Below, one piece after another: positions 10,014 through 10,130 of a DNA stretch of 64,000 nt. Below the pieces are notes generated by a model. That model was not told the DNA's origin. It did not search any database and worked only from the letters and a program-made list of their open reading frames with translations. Each line of letters starts with the position of its first letter. The first letter of the stretch is position 1. Source of the DNA: Nocardioidaceae bacterium (GTDB lineage Bacteria > Actinomycetota > Actinomycetes > Propionibacteriales > Nocardioidaceae); contig JAICXL010000004.1 of the NCBI GenBank assembly GCA_025980475.1, forward strand, positions 20,355 to 84,354, written 5' to 3'. The position numbers were made by a program, and so were the translations under genes.

Positions 10014-10130
10014 GGGTCCTTCTTCGCTGCTGGGCGGTCGTGCCGGGCGCGTCAGCTCTCCGCAGCGAGGAGGTCCGGCGGGTCAGACCTCGCTGCGGCA
10101 GCGAAGGAGGAGGCTACGCATCATGACCGG
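10014..10130 (-). promoter_or_regulatory. leuA 5' leader with mutually exclusive RNA pairings (attenuator / SD-sequestering switch)
   Basis: Plus-strand segments gacctcgctgcgg (10086-10098) and ccgcagcgaggaggtc (10060-10075) are complementary; gcagcgaaggagg (10098-10110) and ccttcttcgctgc (10018-10030, covering the leuA SD) are complementary in 12 of 13 positions. Confidence 0.75.
10083..10124 (-). CDS. leuA leader peptide, MMRSLLLRCRSEV
   Basis: ATG ATG CGT AGC CTC CTC CTT CGC TGC CGC AGC GAG GTC TGA read on the minus strand, directly upstream of leuA; three consecutive Leu codons. Confidence 0.8.
   Translation of the reverse strand: MMRSLLLRCRSEV

Follow-up and report, generated by a model that had tools for sequence, protein, structure and literature searches.

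The window analysed here, a stretch of 64,000 nucleotides from a Nocardioidaceae bacterium, carries leuA on its minus strand (8253-10013), encoding a 2-isopropylmalate synthase of 586 aa with TIGR00970 and NF002991 matches above cut-off. A leader ORF of 13 codons, MMRSLLLRCRSEV*, lies upstream on the same strand (10124-10083, with the second ATG at 10121 as an alternative start), and its motif recurs in 251 of 259 leuA upstream regions. Its TGA stop codon (10083-10085) is separated by 69 nt from the leuA ATG at 10013, which corrects the preliminary description of this DNA, where a leader peptide with three Leu codons had been placed about 70 nt before leuA. The regulatory Leu codons, CTC CTC CTT (10112-10104), make up the 5′ part of arm A (CCTCCTTCGCTGC, 10110-10098), which can form 12 of 13 base pairs with arm D (GCAGCGAAGAAGG, 10030-10018); the latter includes the leuA Shine-Dalgarno (SD) sequence, GAAGG. 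Arm B (CCGCAGCGAGG, 10098-10088), still within the leader ORF, is matched at 11 of 11 positions by arm C (CCTCGCTGCGG, 10070-10060), and the putative pseudoknot strands E1 (GCCGG, 10075-10079) and E2 (CCGGC, 10042-10046) pair at all five positions in the window. All of these features are on the minus strand.

A -10-like box, TATGAT (10134-10139, minus strand), which the preliminary description does not mention, is located 9 nt 5′ of the leader ATG. The gene for a LuxR-type response regulator (10151-10804, minus strand) ends about 12 nt upstream of this box, so that the -35 region would fall at or in the 3′ end of that gene. Given the position of the box, 9 nt from the ATG and just past the stop of the LuxR-type gene, transcription of the leader probably begins at the leader ATG or beside it, and the leader peptide is predicted to be leaderless.

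The 118-nt leader RNA folds more stably (-50.2 kcal/mol) than its dinucleotide shuffles (-39.5 +/- 3.2 kcal/mol; z -3.3, 1/200). Its minimum-energy fold contains the pairing of the Leu-codon arm with the SD region that had been described before (A:D, outer) together with B:C (inner). The second pairing of the preliminary description thus exists but does not compete with the first, being nested within it in the same fold. When a ribosome was placed by hand in a simple fold, SD pairing was 0.38-0.56 on the Leu codons and 0.43 at the stop, against 0.79 in free RNA; because pairing was also lowered with the ribosome at the stop, such folds fail to separate the two states. The lack of a terminator noted earlier holds throughout the comparison: runs of at least five T are absent from leader-to-gene gaps (0/167 at leuA, 0/36 at leuB), and the intrinsic terminator hairpin with a U-tract that marks a classical transcription attenuator of the trp/ilvB type is missing. 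An Rfam scan of positions 9500-11000 returned no meaningful family, the best E-values (1.2 and 4.5) lying far under gathering scores.

Conservation and covariation at leuA loci

An element of this kind, termed LEU, was predicted before most actinobacterial leuA genes by Seliverstov et al. in 2005, with a leader peptide containing Leu codons, a base stem between the Leu run and the SD, a pseudoknot and an alternative fold (PMC1262725). The preliminary description had correctly named such an element, and both the class and the idea of SD pairing were therefore already known. The window shares with it the gene directly downstream, the leader ORF with its Leu run and a predicted pseudoknot past that run.

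Searches for LeuA in the family and the class led to 259 distinct sequences upstream of leuA. Each contains a short Leu-run ORF, which in 251 of them has the motif LL..R.[EG]. A covariance model of the core matched nearly all class genomes examined (144 of 148; 67 of 68 genera), compared with three matches in all, just one being strong, in a phylum-wide draw outside the class. The strong outside match (L426, G400:C191:4084-4160; E 7e-10) lies before leuA, has an LLLL leader and possibly reflects horizontal transfer.

The order of parts is constant: TANNNT, start codon, Leu codons, 5 nt, arm B, stop, E1, C, E2 and leuA. Among 199 non-redundant relatives, TANNNT precedes the leader start by no more than 25 nt in 193, most commonly at a spacing of 6-10 nt, and the distance from the Leu run to arm B is 5 nt in 190. 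The stop codon ends 5-11 nt past arm B in 178/199, with 2-8 nt between B and the stop; the gap from the stop to leuA ranges from 28 to 193 nt. The final Leu codon is CTT in 188/199, and the last two are mostly CUY CUU, resembling the 16S anti-SD. At the third-last Leu codon (CTC 106, CTT 46 and CTG 41 of 199) variation falls mainly on the third base, as expected if the codon is translated. CUU accounts for 307 of 758 Leu codons in leuA leaders (40%), as against 1.1% in leuA coding sequences.

Related elements occur at other leucine genes. leuA paralogues with a LEU-type element have mostly LLL leaders. In family f32, LEU-type elements lie directly upstream of leuC (L319, L327 and L408; leaders MRRVVLLLSSRDETSF, MLIARLLLSGRDES and MRTVLLLLSGRDETSF), with VVLLL, VLLLL or ARLLL leaders. 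In one genome without the usual LeuA (L412, G126:C34), a LEU-type leader, MHTEQLLLRCRDGA, precedes an ORF of 539 aa that resembles isopropylmalate synthase and appears to belong to another LeuA subtype.

We compared the candidate pairings by exchanging arms between distant genomes and by counting alignment columns, tests that take no account of phylogeny. B:C is paired in 97.5% of cells and has two-sided changes at 7 of 11 pairs; cognate duplexes (-21.8) are stronger than swapped ones (-18.0; p 2.6e-29). The helix set down earlier as "competing" is thus one with strong covariation. Likewise, E1:E2 at leuA favours cognate arms (-14.4 vs -12.9; p 1.3e-9), its low column counts (54-60% paired) being due to loose alignment. 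Over the whole structure there are 83 two-sided cells, and its covariation score was reached by none of 500 shuffles. For A:D, cognate arms are better than swapped ones by about 1.2 kcal/mol, against 0.5 in a control region. Duplexes of arm A with leuA SDs (-11.4) are not stronger than those with SDs of other genes from the compared loci (-12.2), because CUCCUU resembles the 16S anti-SD. C:D has a small excess over swapped arms and none over other genes' SDs. CGAGG occurs in 45% of D arms and in 12% of other genes, ancestry being ignored in this count.

Covariation among leuA leaders of the family and class, which the preliminary description had named as a check, is therefore strong for B:C and E1:E2 and weak for the SD pairing. 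We accordingly rejected A:D as a universal switch stem. The contrast between the two sets of pairings points to the predicted H-type pseudoknot (B:C with E1:E2), which is strongly supported by covariation, as the conserved machine.

A leuB element with other putative sensor codons

The genome that contains the window has a second element, upstream of leuB (C1:61554-61631; E 1.5e-7 with the core model). On the same strand leuB is followed by ilvE and cimA, with a protein-kinase gene in between. The leader of this element, MRRTFVLICRRGGAC, carries the sensor codons GTA CTT ATT, that is, V-L-I. A joint model of leuA and leuB elements built without the sensor codons found only two good sites in this genome, which are these two elements; the third matches to R1 (C68, E 0.02) and R2 (C113, E 0.03) lie inside coding sequences and were discarded.

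The element is present at 44 of 72 leuB loci (40/52, plus 4/20 that are more distant). The choice of leaders rested on the start codon, the -10 box and an overlap with arm B and made no use of composition. Among the first 40, V-L-I adjoins arm B in 29 and other mixtures of V, I and L in the remainder, and none has LLL. The rest of the element is kept: B:C is 99% paired over the leuA and leuB classes together, and E1:E2 covaries at leuB also (p 4.5e-6, cognate vs swapped). What is lost is the anti-SD run, replaced by GUA CUU AUY. The distance from the element to the first ORF is 72-354 nt.

The chosen codons are rare ones. In leuB leaders GUA makes up 39 of 63 Val codons (62%), CUU 27 of 49 Leu codons (55%) and AUU 10 of 43 Ile codons, compared with 2.1%, 1.1% and 4.5%, respectively, in leuA coding sequences; CUU at both genes, and GUA before leuB, are enriched 30- to 50-fold over that usage. 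The identity of the codons matches the leuB, ilvE and cimA cluster. Since the RNA core stays constant while the codons change from LLL to V/L/I, this comparison suggests that the codons themselves are the sensor.

Two further features were seen at leuB. A second B-like copy (CUCCGCNGCGAG) recurs 3′ of E2, about 20-45 nt past arm C (at L343, L346, L361, L362, L371, L378 and others), and in many cases comes close to full complementarity with arm C; cognate pairs were no better than swapped ones (p 0.62), and this pairing was set aside. Between the element and leuB, on the minus strand, lies a conserved microprotein ORF, MYDMYPDWGPARNNPDSRYSHEAVQAALDLRDNGGQRPDDN, ending in DDN (L310, G000:C1:53500-62600). 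It is found at 36 of 40 leuB loci (the genome of the window and L331-L381), in many of them with its stop about 10-15 nt upstream of the leuB start, and has no match in Pfam or NCBIfam.

A ribosome-read model and its alternatives

We propose, with a probability of roughly 0.55, that the leuA leader is a LEU element in which a codon-reading sensor peptide acts on an H-type pseudoknot to control leuA. Sequence comparison supports the translated leader, the identity and rarity of its codons, the pseudoknot, the spacing and the lack of a terminator; we infer the leaderless start, the direction of the switch and leuA translation initiation as the output. The Leu codons of the translated, probably leaderless peptide would test the supply of leucyl-tRNA. 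The leading edge of a ribosome lies about 15 nt past its P-site. A ribosome waiting on the first or second Leu codon would thus leave arm B free, and one terminating at the stop, 2-8 nt past B, would cover both B and E1, so that the pseudoknot would form in shortage and be broken in plenty. During leucine shortage the waiting ribosome would also cover arm A, and the leuA start region, left without a partner, would be open to expression. With leucine plentiful and the pseudoknot broken, arm C, joined by arm A once the ribosome leaves, could base-pair with the SD region of leuA, which would damp the gene.

Some observations count against this model. With the SD region, arms A and C pair only slightly more strongly than swapped arms and no more strongly than with SDs from other genes, and the leader-to-gene distance varies (28-193 nt at leuA; 72-354 nt from the leuB element to the first ORF). 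Mutants of the Streptomyces coelicolor leuA leader, as cited by Seliverstov et al., also behaved unlike classical attenuation (PMC1262725).

One alternative is conditional Rho-dependent termination, which we consider unlikely. Here the finished leader would open the pseudoknot and Rho would load on the untranslated, C-rich gap, while a stalled ribosome would keep the pseudoknot closed and let transcription go on; the output would be the amount of mRNA rather than access to the SD. Long, variable leuB gaps suit Rho better than SD masking, and the T-run counts given above agree with a termination route other than an intrinsic one. The gap has 42% C and 22% G (C exceeding G in 92% of cases), against 34% and 35% above the promoter. 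However, a similar excess of C (C 41%, G 24%) marks the start of the leuA coding sequence; being unspecific, the skew was dropped as a sign of Rho, and rut sites are not provable from sequence.

The mechanism of the preliminary description, in which the Leu-codon arm itself masks the SD until a stalled ribosome lifts it off, appears more doubtful still. The Leu codons could mask the SD in the window, where the 12/13 pairing forms part of the minimum-energy fold, and the CUY CUU ending of most Leu runs, like the 16S anti-SD, would suit it; among relatives the covariation reported above gives it little backing, and leuB elements do without the anti-SD run. The preference for CUU is explained equally well by rarity, because GUA, which is not anti-SD-like, is similarly enriched in leuB leaders. 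Other parts of the same description, namely the leader peptide, leucine sensing and the lack of a terminator, are supported.

Seliverstov et al. thought attenuation improbable and favoured a binding site for a protein instead (PMC1262725). On that account the element would be bound by a regulator, for instance the DEAD-box protein ML1624, and leader translation would be irrelevant, which we think very improbable. Such a site would fit the strong conservation of a compact pseudoknot, and the 2005 argument drew on the S. coelicolor mutants (PMC1262725), yet it gives no reason for the frame, Leu identity, rare codons, fixed codon-to-B spacing or the change to Val/Leu/Ile before leuB. Frame, synonymous drift, rare codons, constant spacing and operon-specific codons argue for a sensor read by the ribosome, and codon identity is likely to be that sensor, contrary to the 2005 proposal. 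A chance ORF with chance pairing, for all that short ORFs, GC-rich complementarity and generic SD:pyrimidine pairing are common in such genomes, is refuted by the 259/259 Leu-run ORFs and by the compensatory changes of an element found in 144/148 genomes and 67/68 genera of the class.

Relation to known systems and significance

Leaderless poly-Cys sORFs of mycobacteria (Canestrari 2020) reportedly act by translation attenuation in M. smegmatis, as told in a citing paper; they resemble the present, probably leaderless, sensor ORF but use cysteine codons. The ilvB leader attenuators of Corynebacterium and Mycobacterium likewise have a V/L/I leader peptide and a fold decided by ribosome position; a Rho-independent terminator and its U-tract set them apart from the window leader (PMC11857589, PMC13236596). 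Direct homologues of the window leader are LeuL1 of Streptomyces lividans, MRFGLLLLSCRGEGL, reported as leaderless and without a terminator (PMC8079986), and LeuL of Corynebacterium glutamicum, MTSRANLLLLRRGGSQRS (PMC8709942, PMC4046766). Both are annotated as transcription attenuators, and the available portions of these sources describe neither a pseudoknot nor a leuB version.

The base stem of the 2005 LEU element, between the Leu run and the SD, is seen in the window at 12/13 positions, with weak backing in relatives that does not exceed pairing with SDs of other genes. The present element differs from that of 2005 in two respects: then reported for leuA only, it also stands before leuB (in this same genome), leuC and leuA paralogues, and its sensor codons follow the products of the operon. 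We found no leuB leader described for actinobacteria in the open-access literature, and within that literature both the twin at leuB and the argument from its codons appear to be new.

The mechanism of the LEU element at leuA has been undecided since 2005, and a natural, codon-swapped twin in the same organism allows codon sensing to be told apart directly from protein binding. We think it probable that Actinomycetes use a single pseudoknot core as an amino-acid sensor open to reprogramming, carrying LLL before leuA and Val-Leu-Ile before leuB, and that the LEU element is a codon-reading attenuator without a terminator rather than a protein-binding site. In many Actinomycetes the leucine regulon is thereby predicted to take in leuB (here with ilvE and cimA) and, in some families, leuC, which is relevant to amino-acid producing strains. 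If this reading is true, the regulon would be set by codon swaps on a conserved RNA.
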